A stretch of 49,085 nt of DNA from Oscillospiraceae bacterium (lineage in GTDB: Bacteria > Bacillota > Clostridia > Oscillospirales > CAG-272). The notes beneath the pieces were generated by a model. It did no database searches. It was not told the DNA's origin and saw only the letters and a list, made by a program, of their open reading frames with translations. Below are positions 26,398-48,945 of this stretch, piece after piece (positions within the stretch are counted from its first letter, which is position 1; each line of letters starts with the position of its first letter). The stretch is from positions 1 through 49,085 of the forward strand of contig SVSS01000010.1 in NCBI GenBank assembly GCA_015064185.1, written 5' to 3'. The translations under genes were made by a program, and so were the position numbers.

Positions 26398-26482
26398 GCG
26401 GGTGTGGCGAAATTGGCATACGCATAAGATTTAGGATCTTACGCCGTGAGGCGTGCAGGTTCGACCCCTGTCACCCGCACCA
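26398..26482 (+). tRNA. tRNA-Leu (anticodon TAG)
   Basis: Acceptor stem GCGGGTG/CACCCGC with A73 and an encoded CCA (26480-26482). The anticodon stem TAAGA/TCTTA holds loop TTTAGGA, anticodon TAG. A long variable arm (ACGCCGTGAGGCGT) marks class II. The T-arm is GCAGGTTCGACCCCTGT. Its own 15-base 5' end has an almost complementary stretch in the leader at 26371-26385. Confidence 0.97.
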
Positions 26483-26518
26483 AAAAGAGAGGGCGCCCTT
26501 GTGGCGCCCTCTCTTTTT
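26483..26518 (+). terminator. Terminator after tRNA-Leu
   Basis: The stem AAAGAGAGGGCGCC, loop CTTGT and its complement end in TTTTT directly after the CCA. It is also the first module of the tRNA-linked repeat unit that follows. Confidence 0.9.
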
Positions 26519-26675
26519 GGTGCAGGTACGGAGCCGAACCCCCACGCGAGCAAAATGAAGAGTTTAGTACTTGGCACAAACGCGTGGGGGAAGGAGCGCG
26601 GTCTGCGGGGAGCAGTGCGGCGGTGCCGCAAGCGGTCCTTCCACTCTCGCCACGGCGAGAGAGACGACCCCTCAA
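26519..26675 (+). repeat. tRNA-Leu-linked modular repeat unit
   Basis: After the terminator come: CGGAGCCGAACCC (26529-26541); a 10-bp stem CCCCCACGCG (26539-26548) with CGCGTGGGGG (26581-26590) around a 32-nt AT-rich spacer; a GC-rich stretch; a hairpin CTCTCGCC/GGCGAGAG (26644-26661); and CGACCCCT (26665-26672), which repeats part of the tRNA-Leu T-arm about 203 bp downstream. The two units after tRNA-His have the same order. No coding content is credible. Confidence 0.65.
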
Positions 26676-38045: not shown

Positions 38046-39692
38046 TTAACCCAAGGAATCGGTAATATCCGTGGTAACGCAGTGATCAAAGCAGCCAAAG
38101 ATCTCCTCGGTTTCCTTGGGTACCCAACGCTGTGTAAACGCGCTGACAAGGGGTACAAGCACAAGCCCGCCAAGCATGGCGAACACGCCCGAGTAGAGCG
38201 AGTTTTTAAAGAGGAACCCAAAGAAGCCGCTATCTACGGTAAAGACCTTCATGCTAATGAGGAGCTGTACGATCTCGAGTCCCGTGCCAAACAGGAAGCA
38301 GGTGGCAACGGCGGGCTTGGAGATCTTTTTACTGTAGAGGCCATATAGGAAGGGAGCAAGGAATGCACCCGCCAGCGCACCCCAGGAAACACCCATCATT
38401 TGCGCAATGAATACCGAATCTGCCCAAATCGTATCCTTGAGAATGGCGATGACAGCGGAAAGCGCAACAAAGAATACGATCAAAAGGCGCATAAAGAGCA
38501 CCGATTTTTCCTCATCAATTCTTTTTTTGCGCTTTTTGCTTGCAAGGGGAAGGATGACGTCAAGTGCAAGCGTGGACGAGGAGGTAAGCGCGAGGGAGGA
38601 CAGGGTCGACATCGATGCCGAGAGCACCAACACGATCACGAGTGCAATGATGATTGCGGGGAGCGATGCCAGCATGGTTGGTACGATACGGTCGTTTAAC
38701 ACCGTGCCGCCAACGATACCGTCCTTATAAATCGCGGGGTTGGTGGCGTAGAGTCTGCCAAAGCCGCCAAGGAAGTAGCAGCCGCCCGCAACCACAACGG
38801 CAAACAGGGTCGAGATAATGGTGCCCTTTTTAATGGCGTCCTCGTTTTTGATAGAGTAAAATTTGCCCACCATTTGCGGCAAGCCCCAGGTGCCGAGCGA
38901 GGTGAGAAGCACCACGATCAGCAGGTAAAAGGGCTGTGTGCCGAAGAAGGAGGTAAAGGCGCCTGCCTGCCCTGCGGTTTCGGGATAGGGGGAGGGGATC
39001 TGCGAGAGCTTGAAGATCGCCTCGCCGGCGCCGCCGTTTGCGTTTATCACGGCAACGATCACAACTATGATGCCCACAAGCATGATAATGCCCTGAATAA
39101 AGTCATTGATAGCGGTTGCCATGTAGCCGCCAAAGATCACATACACACCCGTCAGAGCCGCCATTATGATCACCACTGCGGCGTAAGGAACGTCAAAGGC
39201 AGAGTTGAAAAGCCCCGAAAGCCCGTTGTAGAGCGATGCGGTGTAGGGGATCAGAAATACGAAAACGATGACAGAAGCCGCGATTTTTAACTTGGGAGAT
39301 CTGTAGCGCTTTTCAAAGAAATCGGGCATGGTGCGTGAGCCAAGCGCTTGCGTCATAATGCGGGTGCGCCTGCCAAGCACCACCCACGCGAGCAGCGAGC
39401 CGATAAAGGCGTTGCCAAGACCGATCCAAGTAGAGGCAAGGCCGAAGTTCCAGCCAAATTGCCCTGCATACCCGACAAAGATCACGGCAGAGAAGTAAGA
39501 AGTGCCAAAGGCAAAGGCGGTAAGCCACGGGCCTACGTTACGACCGCCAAGCACAAACCCTGTTACGTTGGTTGCGTGACGGCGGCAATAGAAGCCCACA
39601 AAAAGCATCAGTCCGAAAAAGACCAGAATAAACGGTAGTGTTACCAGCACATTTGTGGTGGTGGAGGAGAGTGGGGTTGCTGCGAGTGCCAT
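38046..39692 (-). CDS. Sodium:solute symporter (SSS family), probably for tyrosine
   Basis: A 548-residue membrane carrier of the SSS family, with about 13 helices. The family signature region GLASTWIGLGNAFIGSLLAWVVLGRRTR and the sodium-site helix SASMSTLSSLALTSSS are present. Similar carriers move proline, pantothenate or other small solutes. A T-box leader upstream (39751-40020) has the specifier UAC, so tyrosine is the likely substrate. No enzyme gene follows, which fits a carrier regulated by charged tRNA-Tyr. Confidence 0.85.
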   Translation of the reverse strand: MALAATPLSSTTTNVLVTLPFILVFFGLMLFVGFYCRRHATNVTGFVLGGRNVGPWLTAFAFGTSYFSAVIFVGYAGQFGWNFGLASTWIGLGNAFIGSLLAWVVLGRRTRIMTQALGSRTMPDFFEKRYRSPKLKIAASVIVFVFLIPYTASLYNGLSGLFNSAFDVPYAAVVIIMAALTGVYVIFGGYMATAINDFIQGIIMLVGIIVVIVAVINANGGAGEAIFKLSQIPSPYPETAGQAGAFTSFFGTQPFYLLIVVLLTSLGTWGLPQMVGKFYSIKNEDAIKKGTIISTLFAVVVAGGCYFLGGFGRLYATNPAIYKDGIVGGTVLNDRIVPTMLASLPAIIIALVIVLVLSASMSTLSSLALTSSSTLALDVILPLASKKRKKRIDEEKSVLFMRLLIVFFVALSAVIAILKDTIWADSVFIAQMMGVSWGALAGAFLAPFLYGLYSKKISKPAVATCFLFGTGLEIVQLLISMKVFTVDSGFFGFLFKNSLYSGVFAMLGGLVLVPLVSAFTQRWVPKETEEIFGCFDHCVTTDITDSLG

Positions 39693-39750: not shown

Positions 39751-40020
39751 CCGCCCCTCTGCCAAAAAGCCTGAGGGCGGATCACAAATGCGATACGCGG
39801 TACCACCTCTTTTTACCGCCCCCTCACGAGTGGCGGCCTTTGCGACACAATCATGTCTTCTCGCGGTAACGGGCGACCCCGGCACAGCCTACCGCGCATA
39901 AGGCGTTTCGGTGTGCGGCTCTCGAAATGTATTCGGCACAGTATGTCTACCGCCTTACACCAACCGGCGGCTCTCTTTGCGATATATCCGTGCGTACTGA
40001 TTTTCGGTCACAGCCTTTAT
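39751..40020 (-). promoter_or_regulatory. T-box riboswitch, specifier UAC (Tyr)
   Basis: Read on the minus strand: AGTA box (CAGTACG), AGAGAG, the GGTTGGTG apical loop, then GAATACA (39928-39934), where codon TAC (39929-39931) follows GAA as usual for the specifier. The conserved T-box sequence GAGGTGGTACCGC is at 39797-39809. The terminator, stem 39751-39759 with 39773-39780 and T7, ends the leader. Order and spacing are those of a complete class I T-box. The Tyr assignment rests on the GAA-codon-A rule. Confidence 0.93.
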
Positions 40021-41525: not shown

Positions 41526-41711
41526 ATGAATAAAACAGTTGGCATTATGAAAAATATTGACAATCTTGGCAGGGTTGTTATTCCCAAGGAATTCAGAGAT
41601 AGATTAGGGCTTGAAAAGGGGGTCGAGATCGTTTTAACAAGGGAAGGGGTTTTGATTCGCAATTCAAAGTATGAATTGGTGATGAAAGAGGAAGTTTCAA
41701 GTGTAAAATAA
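41526..41711 (+). CDS. AbrB-family transition-state regulator
   Basis: A 61-residue AbrB/SpoVT DNA-binding protein: MNKTVGIMKNIDNLGRVVIPKEFRDRLGL is the family signature, followed by a short tail. The ATG follows GGGGGACG. The longer frame from 41466 overlaps the operator and is not favoured. A stem terminator follows. It may be controlled by the divergent XRE repressor. Confidence 0.85.
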   Translation: MNKTVGIMKNIDNLGRVVIPKEFRDRLGLEKGVEIVLTREGVLIRNSKYELVMKEEVSSVK

Positions 41712-41730
41712 AGATGTACGCATTTCAAAG

Positions 41731-41762
41731 AAAAAGCCGTTCGCAAAAGCGGACGGCTTTTT
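41731..41762 (+). terminator. Terminator after the AbrB gene; also last module of the tRNA-linked array
   Basis: A 14-bp stem (41731-41744 with 41749-41762) with A5 and T5 at the ends; bidirectional. Confidence 0.85.
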
Positions 41763-41933
41763 GGGTGATGAGATGTCGACTCTCCTCGCACTGCGTGCGA
41801 GGATGGAAGAACCCCTTGGCGCCTGAACGGCACCACCGCACAGCGGATCGGTGTTCTTCCCCTCGCGTTCTACAGACAGCAAAATTTGCAAGTTTAAGTT
41901 ACGCGAGGGGGTTCGCGCCCAAATCACCCACGC
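41762..41933 (-). repeat. tRNA-His-linked repeat unit A
   Basis: On the minus strand the unit begins GGGTGATTTGGGCGCGAACCC, then a 9-bp stem CCCCTCGCG/CGCGAGGGG (41902-41910 with 41859-41867) around 34 AT-rich nt, a GC-rich stretch, a hairpin CCTCGCAC/GTGCGAGG (41784-41802), and a decayed copy of the tRNA-His 3' end (41762-41779). Same order as the unit after tRNA-Leu. No credible gene in this stretch. Confidence 0.65.
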
Positions 41934-41976
41934 CATATGCAAAAAAGGCACCCGATTGGATGCCTTTTGCATATGG
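41933..41976 (-). terminator. Terminator hairpin between units A and B
   Basis: CCATATGCAAAA pairs with TTTTGCATATGG (41933-41944 with 41965-41976), with an inner GGCA/TGCC stem and T-runs. It stands in the place of the tRNA terminator. Confidence 0.7.
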
Positions 41977-42105
41977 GGTGGGTGATGGGAAGTCGATTTA
42001 TTTCGCACTCGCGCGCTCGCGCGAAATGGAAAGTTTCGTATAATATAATTTAAATTTTAAGTAACTACGGAAACTTTCAGGGTTCGGCTCCGACATCACC
42101 CAAAA
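41974..42105 (-). repeat. tRNA-His-linked repeat unit B
   Basis: On the minus strand: GGGTGATGTCGGAGCCGAACCC start (the 13-mer CGGAGCCGAACCC at 42080-42092 is shared with the tRNA-Leu unit), a stem GAAAGTTTC/GAAACTTTC-type (42029-42040 with 42066-42078) around an AT-rich spacer, a hairpin ATTTCGC/GCGAAAT (42000-42027), and a copy of the last 22 bases of tRNA-His including CCA (41974-41996) with one inserted base. Confidence 0.7.
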
Positions 42106-42110
42106 ACGCA

Positions 42111-42137
42111 AAAAGCACCCCGCGAGGGGGTGCTTTT
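42111..42137 (-). terminator. Terminator after tRNA-His
   Basis: AAAAGCACCCC (42111-42121) pairs with GGGGTGCTTTT (42127-42137), directly downstream of the last tRNA. Confidence 0.85.
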
Positions 42138-42143
42138 CGTGTT

Positions 42144-42221
42144 TGGGGTGGGTGATGGGAGTCGAACCCACGACCTCCAGGGCCACAACCTGGCGCTCTA
42201 ACCAACTGAGCTACACTCACC
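42144..42221 (-). tRNA. tRNA-His (anticodon GTG)
   Basis: Minus strand, with G-1 (42221) facing C73 as expected for tRNA-His. The acceptor GTGAGTG/CACCCAC has one A-C mismatch at pair 4-69. The anticodon stem CCAGG/CCTGG holds loop TTGTGGC. The T-arm is GTGGGTTCGACTCCCAT. CCA is encoded (42144-42146). Last gene of a Gly-Arg-His operon. Confidence 0.95.
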
Positions 42222-42237
42222 ATATTTGATTTTGCAG

Positions 42238-42314
42238 TGGCGCGCCTTGAGGGACTCGAACCCCCGACCTACTGCTTAGAAGGCAGTTGCTCTATCCAGC
42301 TGAGCTAAAGGCGC
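42238..42314 (-). tRNA. tRNA-Arg (anticodon TCT)
   Basis: Minus strand. Acceptor GCGCCTT/AAGGCGC, discriminator G and encoded CCA (42238-42240). The anticodon stem ACTGC/GCAGT holds loop CTTCTAA. T-arm GGGGGTTCGAGTCCCTC. Confidence 0.97.
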
Positions 42315-42319
42315 GTACT

Positions 42320-42393
<74 letters not shown>

Positions 42394-42421
42394 CTGTGGT
42401 GCGTTTCAAAACTGCCCTACA

Positions 42422-44947: not shown

Positions 44948-45826
44948 TCAATAGGGCACAACGTTGACACCAAGTGCCTTCATTTTTTCACTTGCCGCCG
45001 CGATCTCCTCTTTGGTGGGCGTGGGAACGTTGGGGATGGGATAGGTCATGCCAAGGCAGGTGTATTTATGCTCGGCGTAGCTATGGTAGGGCAGGATGCG
45101 CACCGCCTTTACCGACTTTAGCTTTGCGATAAACGCGCCGATCTTTTCTACCTCGCCGTCGTTCATCCCGGGCACATACGGGTAGCGGATCTCCATCGGG
45201 ATACCAAGACTATCCACGTACTTGATGTTTTCAAGAATTTGCTTGTTGTAAACGCCCGTGCAGGCAAAATGCACATCCTCGTCGATCGCCTTGATGTCAA
45301 ACAAAAACATATCGGCGAAGGGTATGATCTTGTCAATCGCCTCACGCGCGACAAACGCACTTGTATCAATGGCAAGGTTGATGTCATGCGCCTTAAGGAG
45401 CTTTGCCACCTTTACGCAGTAATCGACCTGCATCAGGGGCTCGCCGCCCGAGAAGGTGACACCGCCGCCGCTGCCCTTCATGATCAGCTCGTCGCGGAGC
45501 AGCTCCTCGACAAGTGCTTCGGGTGTGATATCGTAGCCCGAAACGCTGAATGCCTCGGCAGGGCAAACCTCTACGCACTTTTCACAGCGTACACATTTGT
45601 CGCGCAAAAATACGTGCTTGCCGTCGACGGCAATATTGGCTTCGCAGAGCCCGACGCACTTATGGCAGTTTTTGCACACGCCCTCGTCGTACATGATCTG
45701 CTTTTTAAAGGCAAACGATTCCGGATTGTGACACCATTTGCATCGCAAAGGGCATCCCTTAAAAAACACGGTGGTGCGAATACCGTCGCCGTCGTGGATC
45801 TCAAAGGGCTTTGTGGCAAAGATCAT
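44948..45826 (-). CDS. Glycyl radical enzyme activase
   Basis: A 292-residue radical SAM activase that makes the glycyl radical of its partner. The SAM cluster is C25/C29/C32 in GCPLRCKWC. Two extra 4Fe-4S clusters sit in an inserted ferredoxin-like domain: C51/C54/C57/C61 and C78/C81/C84/C88. GGEPLMQ and FDIKAID follow. The layout matches activases of dehydratase-type glycyl radical enzymes rather than PFL activase, which lacks the extra domain. Coupled to the enzyme gene by a taATG overlap. Confidence 0.92.
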   Translation of the reverse strand: MIFATKPFEIHDGDGIRTTVFFKGCPLRCKWCHNPESFAFKKQIMYDEGVCKNCHKCVGLCEANIAVDGKHVFLRDKCVRCEKCVEVCPAEAFSVSGYDITPEALVEELLRDELIMKGSGGGVTFSGGEPLMQVDYCVKVAKLLKAHDINLAIDTSAFVAREAIDKIIPFADMFLFDIKAIDEDVHFACTGVYNKQILENIKYVDSLGIPMEIRYPYVPGMNDGEVEKIGAFIAKLKSVKAVRILPYHSYAEHKYTCLGMTYPIPNVPTPTKEEIAAASEKMKALGVNVVPY

Positions 45827-48027
45827 TATCCCGACACCTCACATTGCTTGATGAACAGATCCTGCTTTACCTTACTGAGCTTAACGAAGTATTCGTTCCA
45901 GCCGCAAACGCGAACCTGTAGAGTGGAATATTTTTCGGGGTTTGCCTGCGCGTCCTTGAGCATCTCGCCACTGACGATATTGCCCTGCGCCGCAAAGCCA
46001 CCGCCGGCAAAAAAGATCTTCATCAGGGATTCAAAGTCGTTAAGACCCTTGTCGCCCTCAACAGCCGAGGGGTGCATAATGAAGTCGAAAATGGTGGCGT
46101 CGACAAAATCGGCTGCATCTACCTTAAGGAGTGATTGCATGAGTGCCGTGATGCCGCCGCGATCCTGACCCTCGGTTGCACACATATTCTTCGAGAAGGG
46201 TGTGCCGCAATTTCTGCCGTTGGGGGAGGCTGCCGTCATTTCACCAAATGCGACACAGTGATATACCGAGTCAAGGCCAAGACGCAAAACGCCGCCGCGC
46301 TTGAGCTTTCTCGCGCAGTAGCGGTCAGCCCAGTGCTTGGTGATCTTGACCATAAGGGCATCGGGCAGGGGCAGATTGTTGCCGTATTTCTCGGTGTCCT
46401 TAATGATTCTTGTTTGCAGATCCTCATAGCCGCGCCAATCGTTTTTGAGTGCCTCGGTCAGCTCCGCAAGGGTAATTTCCTTTTTCTCAAACACGTACTT
46501 CTTGATCGCCATAAGAGAGTCTACTACCGTAGCAAGGCCCAAATGCTTGATCGAGAGGTTGTTGTACTTCAAGGGATATTCGTGTACGTCGCGGCCCTTT
46601 TCGATGCACGCATCAAACGTGCTTGAGTAAATGGGGGCGGGATTGATCATGGTGTTATACACGCTCTGATCGCGCAGGAAATCAAGCGACCACTCGGTGC
46701 AGTAATCGACCTGATCGAGGAACAGCTGGAAGAACTGCTCAAAGCTGGTAATGTCGGTGGTGCTCTCAAATCCGACCTGATCACCCGTGATGAGGTCCTT
46801 GCCACCATTGAGCGCAAACTCAATGCATTTCACGGTATTGAGGCGCACGGGCGCGATCTCACCTTCCTCCTCACCCATAATAATGGGCTCGTAGCAGCCA
46901 AGCACGACGTAGTTTTGCGCATCCTCTACGGGGATGCCGATGCGCTCGTAGCCTGAAAACACGGCCGCGTCGTTGATGATACAAATGCTGCTGTGACCGC
47001 CGCGGATCATCTTCAGTGCCTGACGGAAGATCTTGTTGTCAAGATTCTTGTGATAGCGAACCTGGATCTTGGGGTCGTAGATATTAAGCTCATCGTAGAT
47101 CTCAAGGAGCTTTAAGCTCAGCTCGTTTGAAAGATCGTTCCCATCCTTGTCACAGCCACAGATGGTAAAGGGCTGCTCGGCATATCTCTTTGCCGCGGTG
47201 AAGTGGATAAAGTAGTAGCGGAACAGATCATCGATCTCCTCCATGGGCACACCGTTTGCAAGATCGTTTTTGTAGTAGGGCAGATACATGCGGTCAATGG
47301 GGCCAAGGGTTCTGCCGCGCTCACGGCCAAACTCCTCGAAATTGAGGTAGAGTGCCGAAATGAGCATGACCTCGTAAAGCGTTTCGGGCGCTTTGGTGGT
47401 GAGGTTTTTGATTGCCGCCGAGAATGCGGGTACATCAAACTTAAGAGAGTACTCGTAAACGCGGTTTAAGAGGCGCAGGATCGCCTCGTAGCAGATGATG
47501 ACCGAGTCAAAGAAGTTGATCTGATCCTGATCGATCTTACCGCTGTCAAGCCATTTTTGCTTCGATGTCTTGGTGTTTTCAAGAATGCCTGCAAAGCCGT
47601 ATTTGATCACGTTGGTCCAATTGGGAACCGTGTGCCAGAAGTCGGTGAAGAAGTAGCCAACACCTACCTTGCGGAAAAGCTCTGCCTTCTTGAGGTCCTC
47701 GGGCATCTTCTCGCGCAGTACCTTGGTGCGCTGAGGGCGGGACATAACGGTTTCAAGAATGCTGTTGGTGGCAAAGTAGCTGTAATCAATGCCAACATTA
47801 AATTTTACGGAAAAGGGTGTGTGCTCGTTGATCTCAAGCTGAAGGTTGTCGAGCAAATAGGCGTATGCCTTGGCAAAGACCAGCGCACGGGGCTCATCGG
47901 TAGGTGTATCCTGGATCTCCTGCAGCTTTTGGCGCAGGATCTCGACATCAAGACCCGTGGCGGGGTCGAAATTGGCAAGCTCATATTCGTTTTCAATCAT
48001 GGGGCGGTTTTGAGTAAAAGATTTCAT
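45826..48027 (-). CDS. Glycyl radical enzyme of unknown substrate
   Basis: A 733-residue glycyl radical enzyme. The catalytic Cys is C378 in VVLGCYEP, close to the GCxEP motif of dehydratases and C-N/C-O lyases; PFL uses a CC pair instead. The glycyl radical site is G709 in RVCGWNEYF, with the unusual Cys708 next to it. Full length. No microcompartment genes, so it differs from choline or propanediol systems of that type. The start has a strong AGGAGG site. Neighbouring AraC regulator and operator suggest induction by its substrate. I cannot assign the substrate. Confidence 0.88.
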   Translation of the reverse strand: MKSFTQNRPMIENEYELANFDPATGLDVEILRQKLQEIQDTPTDEPRALVFAKAYAYLLDNLQLEINEHTPFSVKFNVGIDYSYFATNSILETVMSRPQRTKVLREKMPEDLKKAELFRKVGVGYFFTDFWHTVPNWTNVIKYGFAGILENTKTSKQKWLDSGKIDQDQINFFDSVIICYEAILRLLNRVYEYSLKFDVPAFSAAIKNLTTKAPETLYEVMLISALYLNFEEFGRERGRTLGPIDRMYLPYYKNDLANGVPMEEIDDLFRYYFIHFTAAKRYAEQPFTICGCDKDGNDLSNELSLKLLEIYDELNIYDPKIQVRYHKNLDNKIFRQALKMIRGGHSSICIINDAAVFSGYERIGIPVEDAQNYVVLGCYEPIIMGEEEGEIAPVRLNTVKCIEFALNGGKDLITGDQVGFESTTDITSFEQFFQLFLDQVDYCTEWSLDFLRDQSVYNTMINPAPIYSSTFDACIEKGRDVHEYPLKYNNLSIKHLGLATVVDSLMAIKKYVFEKKEITLAELTEALKNDWRGYEDLQTRIIKDTEKYGNNLPLPDALMVKITKHWADRYCARKLKRGGVLRLGLDSVYHCVAFGEMTAASPNGRNCGTPFSKNMCATEGQDRGGITALMQSLLKVDAADFVDATIFDFIMHPSAVEGDKGLNDFESLMKIFFAGGGFAAQGNIVSGEMLKDAQANPEKYSTLQVRVCGWNEYFVKLSKVKQDLFIKQCEVSG

Positions 48028-48048
48028 TTTCCGTCACCTCCTAGTTGC

Positions 48049-48077
48049 ATTGTATCATTTTGGCGGGCATGAGTAAA
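48049..48077 (-). promoter_or_regulatory. Promoter of the glycyl radical enzyme operon
   Basis: On the minus strand: TTTACT (48072-48077, poor -35), 17 bp, TACAAT (48049-48054, good -10). The poor -35 next to an AraC-type half-site fits activator dependence. Confidence 0.55.
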
Positions 48078-48084
48078 TACAGTT

Positions 48085-48113
48085 ATCCGTCAAAAAAATA
48101 TAAAAATCCGTCA
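48085..48113. promoter_or_regulatory. AraC-type operator: two ATCCGTCA half-sites
   Basis: ATCCGTCA at 48085-48092 and again at 48106-48113, exactly 21 bp apart (two helix turns) as direct repeats, the usual geometry for AraC-family sites. The first lies 7 bp from the enzyme operon -35; the second abuts the -35 of the araC-type gene. Confidence 0.75.
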
Positions 48114-48142
48114 TTGACAAGAGGCGCACCATGTGCTATACT
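48114..48142 (+). promoter_or_regulatory. Promoter of the AraC regulator gene
   Basis: TTGACA (48114-48119), 17 bp, TATACT (48137-48142), with TG before the -10. The operator half-site touches its -35, which suggests autorepression. Confidence 0.85.
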
Positions 48143-48168
48143 GCAATTGACAGGGGGGGTGAATTGCC

Positions 48169-48945
48169 GTGTTAAACGATCTTGTGATCAAAAACGTGGT
48201 GCGTGCGTATTACGCAAAGCACCTTGCGTGGGAGCGAAATCGCTTCTCGCCGCGTGGGGCAGATGCGATCGTTTTATTTACTGAAGGTAAGATAGAGTAC
48301 CACTTTGAGGGGAAGACACTCATTGCAGGGAAGGGAGATTTCCTTCTCTTACCGGCAGACCTTCCTTATTCGGGCAGGAAGCTTGCGGATAAGTGTGCGT
48401 TTTTCGTGCTTGATTTTGAGTGTGCGCCAAGGGACGCATTTGAAAAATTCCCCGCGCCCGCGGTGGTGCCTGCAGGGGATTTTGAGGAAGCGGTCAGGCT
48501 CTTTTCCGATGCGATCAATGTATGGAATGAGCATAGAAGCAATGTGAGTTTTAAAATAAAGGCGATTGCCTACCAGCTCCTTTGCGAGGTATTAAAGGAG
48601 AGCACGGTGCAAAAAAACACCGTGCCTGTCGATGTGATCGTTTCATATATCGCCAAAAATATCGGTGATTCCACACTATCCGTAGCGGACCTTTGCCGTA
48701 AATTTTTCATCTCCGAGTCGCAGCTGCGCCGCAACATCCAGCGCGCCACGCGTCTAACACCAAGTGAGTATATTTTAACGCTCCGCCTCAATCGCGCGAA
48801 AAACGAGCTTTCCTACACCGACCGTTCCGTCAAGGAGATCGCCGCGCGGTGCGGGTTTGCCAGCCCCTATTATTTTTCGCGATGCTTTTCAGAGGAAATG
48901 GGTATGTCGCCTCTTGCATACAGAAAAAACAGCAGATCGATGTGA
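48169..48945 (+). CDS. AraC-family transcriptional regulator
   Basis: A 258-residue regulator. The N-terminal half is a cupin-like sensor (GKIEYHFEGKTLIAGKGDFLLLPADLPYS). The C-terminal half has two helix-turn-helix motifs: TLSVADLCRKFFISESQLRRN and VKEIAARCGFASPYYFSRCFSEEMGMSPLAYR, the AraC signature. The start is GTG at 48169, after GGGGGGGTG. It is divergent from the glycyl radical operon and shares the operator at 48085-48113. The ligand is probably the enzyme substrate. Confidence 0.9.
   Translation: MLNDLVIKNVVRAYYAKHLAWERNRFSPRGADAIVLFTEGKIEYHFEGKTLIAGKGDFLLLPADLPYSGRKLADKCAFFVLDFECAPRDAFEKFPAPAVVPAGDFEEAVRLFSDAINVWNEHRSNVSFKIKAIAYQLLCEVLKESTVQKNTVPVDVIVSYIAKNIGDSTLSVADLCRKFFISESQLRRNIQRATRLTPSEYILTLRLNRAKNELSYTDRSVKEIAARCGFASPYYFSRCFSEEMGMSPLAYRKNSRSM

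Follow-up and report, generated by a model that had tools for sequence, protein, structure and literature searches.

Small structured units bounded by copies of tRNA 3' ends behind tRNA genes of an Oscillospiraceae bacterium

The array behind tRNA-His

The window analysed here is the whole stretch of 49,085 nucleotides of contig SVSS01000010.1 (C4), part of the 1.53-Mb assembly GCA_015064185.1 of an Oscillospiraceae bacterium (G000, the source genome). On its minus strand, the tRNA-His gene is followed by two tandem units, with the features listed below.

42144-42220, minus strand: tRNA-His (gtg), found by ARAGORN and Rfam; the tail T1 comprises its 27 3'-terminal bases (42144-42170)
42104-42144, minus strand: terminator-like hairpin of unit 1, arms 42104-42121 and 42127-42144 (inverted repeat I3)
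42080-42102, minus strand: A1 of unit 1, antisense of the T-arm and acceptor 3' strand of tRNA-His, TGGGTGATGTCGGAGCCGAACCC
42029-42079, minus strand: core of unit 1, an AT-rich loop closed by the stem GAAAGTTTCCG..CGAAACTTTC (fold)
42000-42027, minus strand: GC hairpin of unit 1 (sequence and fold)
41974-41996, minus strand: T2, the tRNA-His tail repeated in sense orientation, a single T inserted, TCGACTTCCCATCACCCACCCCA
41934-41975, minus strand: terminator-like hairpin of unit 2 (inverted repeat I1)
41909-41935, minus strand: A1 of unit 2, antisense tail copy
41859-41910, minus strand: P2 of unit 2, stem CCCCTCGCG / CGCGAGGGG with an AT-rich loop (fold)
41805-41860, minus strand: P3 of unit 2, conserved branched stem (covariance model R1, 59.9 bits, E 9.2e-14; this copy is one of the ten training sequences of R1)
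41783-41803, minus strand: P4 of unit 2, GC hairpin (fold)
41762-41779, minus strand: T3, decayed sense tail copy, TCGACATCTCATCACCCA
41731-41762, minus strand: last terminator-like hairpin of the array (inverted repeat I4)

The layout behind tRNA-His runs from the tRNA tail through a terminator, an antisense tail copy (A1) and a structured core to a sense tail copy (T2). An earlier note on this DNA had described two downstream copies of the tRNA-His tail, and these are indeed present at 41974-41996 (with one inserted base) and 41762-41779, at spacings of 170 and 212 bp; so is the order that it gave, namely tail, terminator hairpin, GAACCC, stem with AT-rich loop, GC hairpin and tail copy. What that note took for a GAACCC core is in fact where A1 ends, A1 being the T-arm and acceptor strand of the same tRNA copied in antisense; the boundaries of each unit are therefore formed by the tRNA 3' end as an inverted repeat. 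The proposal of a core common to three units, two here and one behind a tRNA-Leu, does not hold either: the core of His unit 1 is different and shorter, and P3 is common to His unit 2 and the Leu unit. Neither the antisense arm nor the versions with genes, reported below, figured in that note.

The predicted folds of units 1 and 2 have z-scores of -5.0 and -5.2, with none of 200 shuffles as stable in either case, and the whole 501-nt array reaches -14.8 (100 shuffles). The stem type of the unit 1 core recurs in the first unit behind tRNA-Leu(caa). In unit 2, the terminator-like hairpin plus A1 and T2 gives 22-nt arms (41923-41944 and 41965-41986). The computed duplex of unit 1 A1 is about -35 kcal/mol with T1 and about -22 kcal/mol with T2.

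Using Rfam 15 on the window at the gathering score, and on three loci (L003, L004 and L012) and window positions 41600-42400 at E up to 1, only tRNAs and a T-box of the window passed the gathering score. This T-box leader (39770-40020, minus strand, 100 bits) lies upstream of an ORF (38046-39692, minus strand) named symporter-like by eye. On the other side of the array, the ORFs at 44948-48945 presumably encode a glycyl-radical enzyme-like protein, its activase and a divergent AraC-like regulator.

A related unit behind tRNA-Leu(tag)

The second locus in the window lies on the plus strand.

26398-26482, plus strand: tRNA-Leu (tag), found by ARAGORN
26473-26527, plus strand: terminator-like palindrome running into the tRNA-Leu tail (inverted repeat, 25-nt arms, 96%)
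26518-26540, plus strand: A1 of the Leu unit
26539-26590, plus strand: P2 of the Leu unit, 26539-26548 with 26581-26590 (fold)
26590-26642, plus strand: P3 of the Leu unit (R1, 34.9 bits, E 1.9e-6; also among the ten sequences of the model)
26644-26661, plus strand: P4 hairpin of the Leu unit (sequence and fold)
26665-26672, plus strand: T2 of the Leu unit, CGACCCCT, tRNA positions 56-63 (short; sense score 8, alone not significant)

The earlier note had assigned to this unit the order seen behind tRNA-His and a bounding copy, CGACCCCT. The order stands; the copy is found at 26665-26672 but is too short to be significant alone. The 13-mer CGGAGCCGAACCC, reported as common to this unit and His unit 2, was recovered in both. 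The Leu unit folds more weakly than the His units (z -2.3), two of 200 shuffles being as stable.

The P3 core and its distribution

P3, which is common to several units, consists of a stem enclosing a small hairpin and a hairpin of the form GGYGG..TTYAG..CCRCC. A covariance model built from ten P3 copies (R1) returned 21 full-length and two partial hits in the source genome. Searches with R1 covered 20 genus mates, 27 family members and 31 order members; hits were obtained in 17 of the genus mates (up to 20 copies), two of the family members and two of the order members. Several of the assemblies are incomplete (76-88%), and fragmentation may conceal or collapse copies. Three of these four positive genomes outside the genus are doubtful or possibly mis-binned. 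Among individual hits, that in G027 is doubtful, lying by eye inside a coding-like region; that in G069 is doubtful at 33 bases; that in G018 is doubtful, with no tail copies visible by eye; and that in G058 sits on a 3-kb contig that may be mis-binned. A collection of named genomes contained nine stretches with the P3 pattern, from Clostridia bacterium MAGs of sheep, goat and roe deer gut. In a sister genus (G022), a P2-P3-like core with no clear T2 lies behind tRNA-Leu(gag) (L104, 1501-1557) and may be an older or decayed form.

The earlier note had expected compensatory changes in the stems, and P3 provides them. In 63 distinct aligned copies, 94.2% of cells pair, compared with 80.4% after shuffling (the alignment being fitted to R1). 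Changes on both sides occur in 11 of 15 pairs, a number reached by 25 of 500 shuffles, and the covariation score is 0.436 as against 0.180 for shuffled alignments (0 of 500) and at most 0.134 for slid versions. It had likewise predicted that model hits would lie mostly 3' of tRNA genes. For the positions, 74 hits were hand-listed from 85 matches after self-matches on the reverse strand and places repeated in overlapping loci had been removed, though a few repeats may be left. Of these hits, 57 fall no more than 800 nt past the 3' end of a tRNA, on the strand of that tRNA in 53 cases and on the opposite strand in four. The other 17 have no tRNA there, several being at contig edges or in gene arrays. 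P3 is inverted relative to the upstream tRNA behind Gly(ccc) of the source genome (L080, 1501-1558 and 1760-1817) and behind Glu(ctc) of G020 (L157, 583-639 and 976-1032).

Matching of the copies to the adjacent tRNA

To each tRNA's own tail and to the tails of other tRNAs, we assigned a score on the first 300 downstream bases. The scoring set comprised the 27 operon-terminal tRNAs of the source genome, drawn from 39 distinct sequences (42 matches); the other genomes sampled contributed 32 distinct sequences of 39 matches (G015), 29 of 39 (G011), 30 of 40 (G028) and 37 of 54 (G055). In the source genome, the mean antisense score was 11.2 for own tails and 7.4 for other tails, and the mean sense score 12.2 and 7.35, respectively; neither sum was reached in 10000 permutations. 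Permutation results were equally clear in the close relative G015 (0 of 10000 for both copies) and in the genus mate G011 (1 and 0 of 10000), in contrast to G028, of the same family but another genus, and G055, of the same order, where p ranged from 0.25 to 0.90.

An A1 or T2 score above 11 was found for 18 of the 27 operon-terminal tRNAs of the source genome (both copies in 10), 18 of 21 in G015 and eight of 20 in G011, as against none of 20 in G028 and none of 24 in G055, where one sense score equalled 11. The pattern described in the earlier note is real, and it is more widespread than first noted. G011 has no P3 hit among the R1 matches and yet has copies of its own tails; its elements therefore have other cores.

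Terminator-centred palindromes reaching at least 8 nt into the tRNA were seen at seven of 27 tRNAs in the source genome, eight of 22 in G015, one of 20 in G011 and none of 44 in G028 and G055 combined. That tail, terminator and A1 can form a single palindrome lends something to an explanation in which no element of its own kind is needed: at tRNA terminators, the tail would be copied in inverted and direct orientation by template switching and fold-back synthesis, and slippage and homologous recombination would multiply the copies, consistent with a tandem copy number that varies. We consider this quite unlikely, since it leaves unexplained both the cores conserved in sequence and structure across tRNAs and species and the stretches that bear genes.

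Several further sequences resemble parts of tRNAs or of units. In L003 (about 1490-1770), an intergenic inverted pair, TATAGCCGAAGGGAGCCGAACCC..GCTCGACTCCCTTCGGCTATA, is A1/T2-like in a locus with no tRNA, and L004 holds a similar inverted pair within about 290 bp. An intergenic motif like a tRNA 3' half, about GGGTTCGAYTCCCGTGCGGCTA, occurs in L004 (about 1490-1775), L056 (about 1483-1523) and L062 (about 2287-2316), and with one change behind tRNA-Leu(aag) of G015; no tRNA of matching acceptor was among the tRNAs seen. At the start of contig C10 of the source genome (L083, 1-490), a tRNA-Pro-like 5' half, judged by eye, stops near the anticodon and joins other sequence, and two further copies of this 5' end lie close by, around a P3-like hit.

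Edges of the copies, pairing and strand

For the edges we used 42 units, among the loci given, with an antisense score of at least 9 and a sense score of at least 11. Both arms were found at 22 tRNA types, and the A1-to-T2 spans measure 57-287 nt, a range that includes spans with two units in tandem. In 34 of the 42 units, the longest run of T2 identical to the tRNA has its first base at tRNA positions 56-62 (peaks at 56 and 60-61), which places it in the T-loop or at the beginning of the 3' strand of the T-stem. These numbers are not independent, because T2 was chosen by its tail match and the set includes homologous loci from both G000 and G015. At the 3' edge, the runs end anywhere between positions 63 and 76, and 12 units reach the CCA end. 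An identity peak of T2 at positions 60-66 was discounted in favour of these exact-match edges, since local alignment favours the middle of a match. In tRNA-targeting islands, an intact tRNA is accompanied by a displaced 3' tRNA fragment, and the crossover subsites known for them include the T loop and the T/acceptor junction (PMC4383910). The narrow near edge and free far edge of T2 would be as expected of such tRNA-targeted integration.

A different interpretation is that the units act as structured RNA: with occasional read-through of the terminator, P1-P4 would fold, and A1 would pair by turns with the tRNA tail and with T2, a switch that would control maturation or turnover of the tRNA. 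The strong covariation of P3 speaks for it, as do the ability of A1 to pair with both T1 and T2 and the fact that 53 of the 57 tRNA-linked P3 hits share the strand of the tRNA. The P3 pairs include 42 of the G.T type and 17 of the A.C type, or 24 and 14 when one column pair is removed (R1 itself favours G.T); this excess of G.U-type pairs fits an RNA, and it weakly suggests that the tRNA-sense strand is the one folded, as DNA or RNA, rather than a bottom strand as in integrons. But A1 lies after a terminator-like hairpin with a T-run and would therefore rarely be transcribed. The pairing of A1, for its part, counts against the cassette reading set out below. Its helix with T2 reaches 8 pairs in the free fold in only 25 of the 42 units, and in 40 of 42 A1 has a better partner in the tRNA tail than in T2, a preference biased because both arms were picked by tail match. 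The differences between A1 and the tail show no excess of wobble-preserving changes over their mirror images (24 compared with 25), which is what one would expect were A1 not maintained as antisense RNA to the tRNA, and that role for A1 was set aside as unsupported by this test. Against a regulatory RNA there are also the inversion of P3 in some arrays, the occurrence of sites behind protein genes, with no adjacent tRNA to regulate, and the variation of the cores between loci and between close species. We rate the RNA interpretation, which is the main rival, as rather unlikely and favour a DNA attachment site.

Differences between close relatives

The earlier note had looked to empty sites in some strains. 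Copy number and content do differ at the same tRNA between close assemblies, tandem collapse being possible, but a clean empty site with undisturbed flanks, as it would look before insertion, was not seen in any of them. Compared with G015, the source genome has one extra unit at Arg(ccg), at Tyr and at a Gly operon, while at Gly(ccc) its copies are more numerous; as the G015 assembly is fragmented and 83% complete, collapsed repeats could explain part of these copy-number differences. At one tRNA-Met, the tRNA, T2 and the outer flank are the same in the two genomes, and the terminator and core differ. At Ala(ggc), an element follows the tRNA in the source genome and other genes follow it in G015. 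The order in G015 behind Gln(ctg) is gene, terminator, A1, core and T2.

Behind Leu(aag) in G015, a shared gene is reached after 570 bases of gene-less units. In the source genome, this gene starts at C15:7895, behind genes and three sites (at least 7.8 kb); the tRNA-Leu(aag) of the source genome lies at the end of contig C12, and C12 and C15 are therefore probably neighbours there. One G015 row labelled Tyr in our data is the His locus: the tRNA at this position (C24:12000-12073) differs by one base from the copy of the source genome and has the anticodon GTA, which may be an assembly error or real.

Genes between sites

Some of the stretches between sites carry genes. On C15 of the source genome, three sites alternate with a membrane-protein gene and an ORF of 152 aa, each of these features lying on one and the same strand, and one T2 ends with the last 15 bases of the tRNA-Leu(aag) tail. 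On C14, tRNA-Met is followed by genes and then by a site that ends in the tail of the same tRNA-Met. Behind tRNA-Leu(aag) of G012 come a site, a small opposite-strand ORF, a BspA-like ORF, a further site and the membrane-protein gene also present on C15, while in G016 two sites flank a response-regulator/sensor-kinase pair and an opposite-strand ORF. Gene and site orientation is uniform on C15 and C14 and in G015; with the opposite-strand ORFs between sites in G012 and G016, gene orientation therefore follows that of the site mostly, not always.

The membrane protein P0002, encoded between two sites of the source genome, occurs in four other genomes at 86-88% identity with different flanks, and has two more distant homologues (41-43%). 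In G012, its gene lies within the Leu(aag) array. In G017, a P3 site lies upstream and what we take to be a dxs-like gene downstream. In G005, the gene is preceded by a T2-like GGTTCAACGTCCC, and no P3 was found beside it there or in G014.

Two further features were noticed behind genes or tails. A block of about 140 bp ending in ATGCATCTAAATTGACCACACTAGCCAA recurs before the terminator behind genes (L115, 4979-5119 and 6414-6441; L321, 995-1022). In L116, an ORF resembling a four-helix bundle (1715-2068), presumably akin to 23S intervening-sequence proteins, and a second, apparently shortened one (from about 3753) each start soon after a tRNA-Met tail copy.

Search for a mobiliser

The search for a recombinase used the profile PF00589 and the IntI profile TIGR02249, and among the matches examined none was tied to the elements. 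The source genome encodes two PF00589 proteins. One, L118, is nearest to XerC and XerD, under their cut-offs. The gene for the other, P0001, has its start some 170 bp upstream of tRNA-Val(gac) and is directed away from this tRNA. As a mobiliser P0001 is unsupported, because homologues were not found in the element-rich genus mates G001, G009 and G020 (assemblies 83-88% complete) and because a tRNA is present in only three of 30 fetched P0001 loci, two of these being those of the source genome and G015.

Each of the 21 genus genomes has one to six PF00589 matches (subfamilies pooled); G012, with three P3 hits, has a single one. Other tyrosine recombinases were considered as helpers and dropped, only one of 17 PF00589 loci checked having a tRNA within its flanks (L229; subfamilies pooled). 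None of the 79 genomes has an IntI match over the 265-bit cut-off of TIGR02249; eight match at 75-83 bits, none of them in the genus, and the two recombinases of the source genome score 77 and 64 bits. No integrase was present among eight scanned proteins of the gene arrays. Spread by phages or plasmids found no match in one blastn query per collection and three viral-contig scans.

Comparison with known systems

The tRNA-targeted islands of tyrosine integrases, such as those catalogued by Islander, resemble the present elements in having an intact tRNA at one end, a displaced 3' fragment at the other, an edge near the T-loop and tandem arrays. The displaced fragment here also starts at a crossover subsite known from islands (T2 5' edge at 56-62 in 34 of 42 units; subsites from PMC4383910). 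Unlike such islands, the elements are without an integrase, for which the A1-to-T2 spans of only 57-287 nt leave no room, and they have an antisense tail copy and a folded core in one layout at 22 tRNA types. The same source states that Islander drops candidates that are under 2 kb or lack an integrase (PMC4383910).

Integrons and CALIN elements offer a second likeness, in that gene stretches end in an imperfect palindrome conserved mainly in structure, with a branched terminal structure and unpaired stem bases; these are the attC features given in PMC2727003. Here, in contrast, the target is the T-arm of a tRNA, a terminator precedes the sites examined, and gene orientation is mixed in two arrays. 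attC sites are bounded by the boxes R'' RYYYAAC and R' GTTRRRY. Paired boxes of this kind occur in none of eight gene-array sites and none of the 42 tRNA units, GTTRRRY itself being found in none of the eight. With both IntI over the cut-off in the 79 genomes and paired attC boxes missing, membership of the integrons was rejected. Integrons have been reported to be extremely rare in Firmicutes (PMC9024848).

A third likeness is to MITEs and PATEs, which are short, non-coding, repeated and hairpin-rich (PMC3119063), and with it comes another candidate explanation: miniature transposable elements with terminal inverted repeats, or palindrome elements moved by HUH enzymes (IS200/IS605-like), would prefer tRNA ends, A1 and T2 being their terminal repeats. 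Such an origin would account for the inverted repeat around the core and for the inverted pairs of L003 and L004, in loci where no tRNA was found, and hairpin-rich non-autonomous elements have been described (PATEs, PMC3119063). Yet the terminal repeats differ from locus to locus and match the neighbouring tRNA, unlike ordinary transposon ends and those of MITEs and PATEs, and the 5' edges of the sense copy fall in a narrow range; we judge a transposon of this type decidedly improbable.

Finally, Tycheposons, marine tRNA-associated integrative elements, are alike in their tRNA copies at the ends and their gene cargo. They are several kb long and carry their own recombinase. By titles and the starts of abstracts, we found no description of elements of the present type in the open-licence PMC literature, the body covered by this search. 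The elements combine island-like ends with an integron-cassette-like folded site and gene arrays, and fail the tested defining features of each; there is a real chance that they are a new kind of system.

Proposed mechanism and implications

The reading that we prefer, and to which we would give somewhat less than an even chance, is that these are tiny integrative cassettes, most of them devoid of genes, which enter tRNA genes by recombination in the T-arm and bear a folded site resembling that of integrons. Its observed basis lies in the anatomy of the sequence, the matching of tails, the covariation of P3, the edge of T2, the differences between species and the gene-bearing versions. Insertion and mobility would follow from these only by way of site-specific recombination, recognition by shape, single-strand folding of the site and a recombinase acting in trans, all of which we infer. 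Weighing against this reading are the pair types of P3, the incomplete A1:T2 helices, the opposite-strand ORFs of G012 and G016, the P0002 genes with no P3 beside them in G005 and G014, copy-number differences that may stem from assembly collapse, and the negative outcome, within the scope given above, of looking for a linked recombinase, a phage or plasmid carrier and a clean empty site.

Under the cassette reading, integration would split the tRNA at the T-loop. The incoming cassette would bring a replacement 3' end, so that the tRNA stays intact, and the old 3' end would be displaced to the far side of the insert as T2. The cassette would have its own terminator and a folded attachment site formed from A1, stems P2-P4 and the tail. 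As A1 is complementary to the tail, this site could be recognised by its shape, as is integron attC, and not by its letters, and by such recognition one system could serve 22 tRNA types. Tandem units would arise by repeated integration or slippage; most cassettes would be empty, and some of the stretches between sites would carry genes. A bolder form of this proposal, which we think unlikely, is a second gene-cassette system apart from integrons, in which entry would be at tRNA T-arms throughout the genome, the arms of the folded site would copy the 3' half of the host tRNA and a single recombinase would act by shape.

The elements may represent an undescribed way of adding DNA behind tRNA genes. 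If the RNA interpretation were true instead, they would form a genus-wide layer of control on tRNA genes. If the cassette reading is true, tRNA-ended islands would exist below the 2-kb limit of Islander, and modular DNA of very small size would land at many tRNA genes of a genus of gut bacteria. Attachment-site arms would change with the host tRNA, and cassette recombination recognised by shape would become testable outside integrons.
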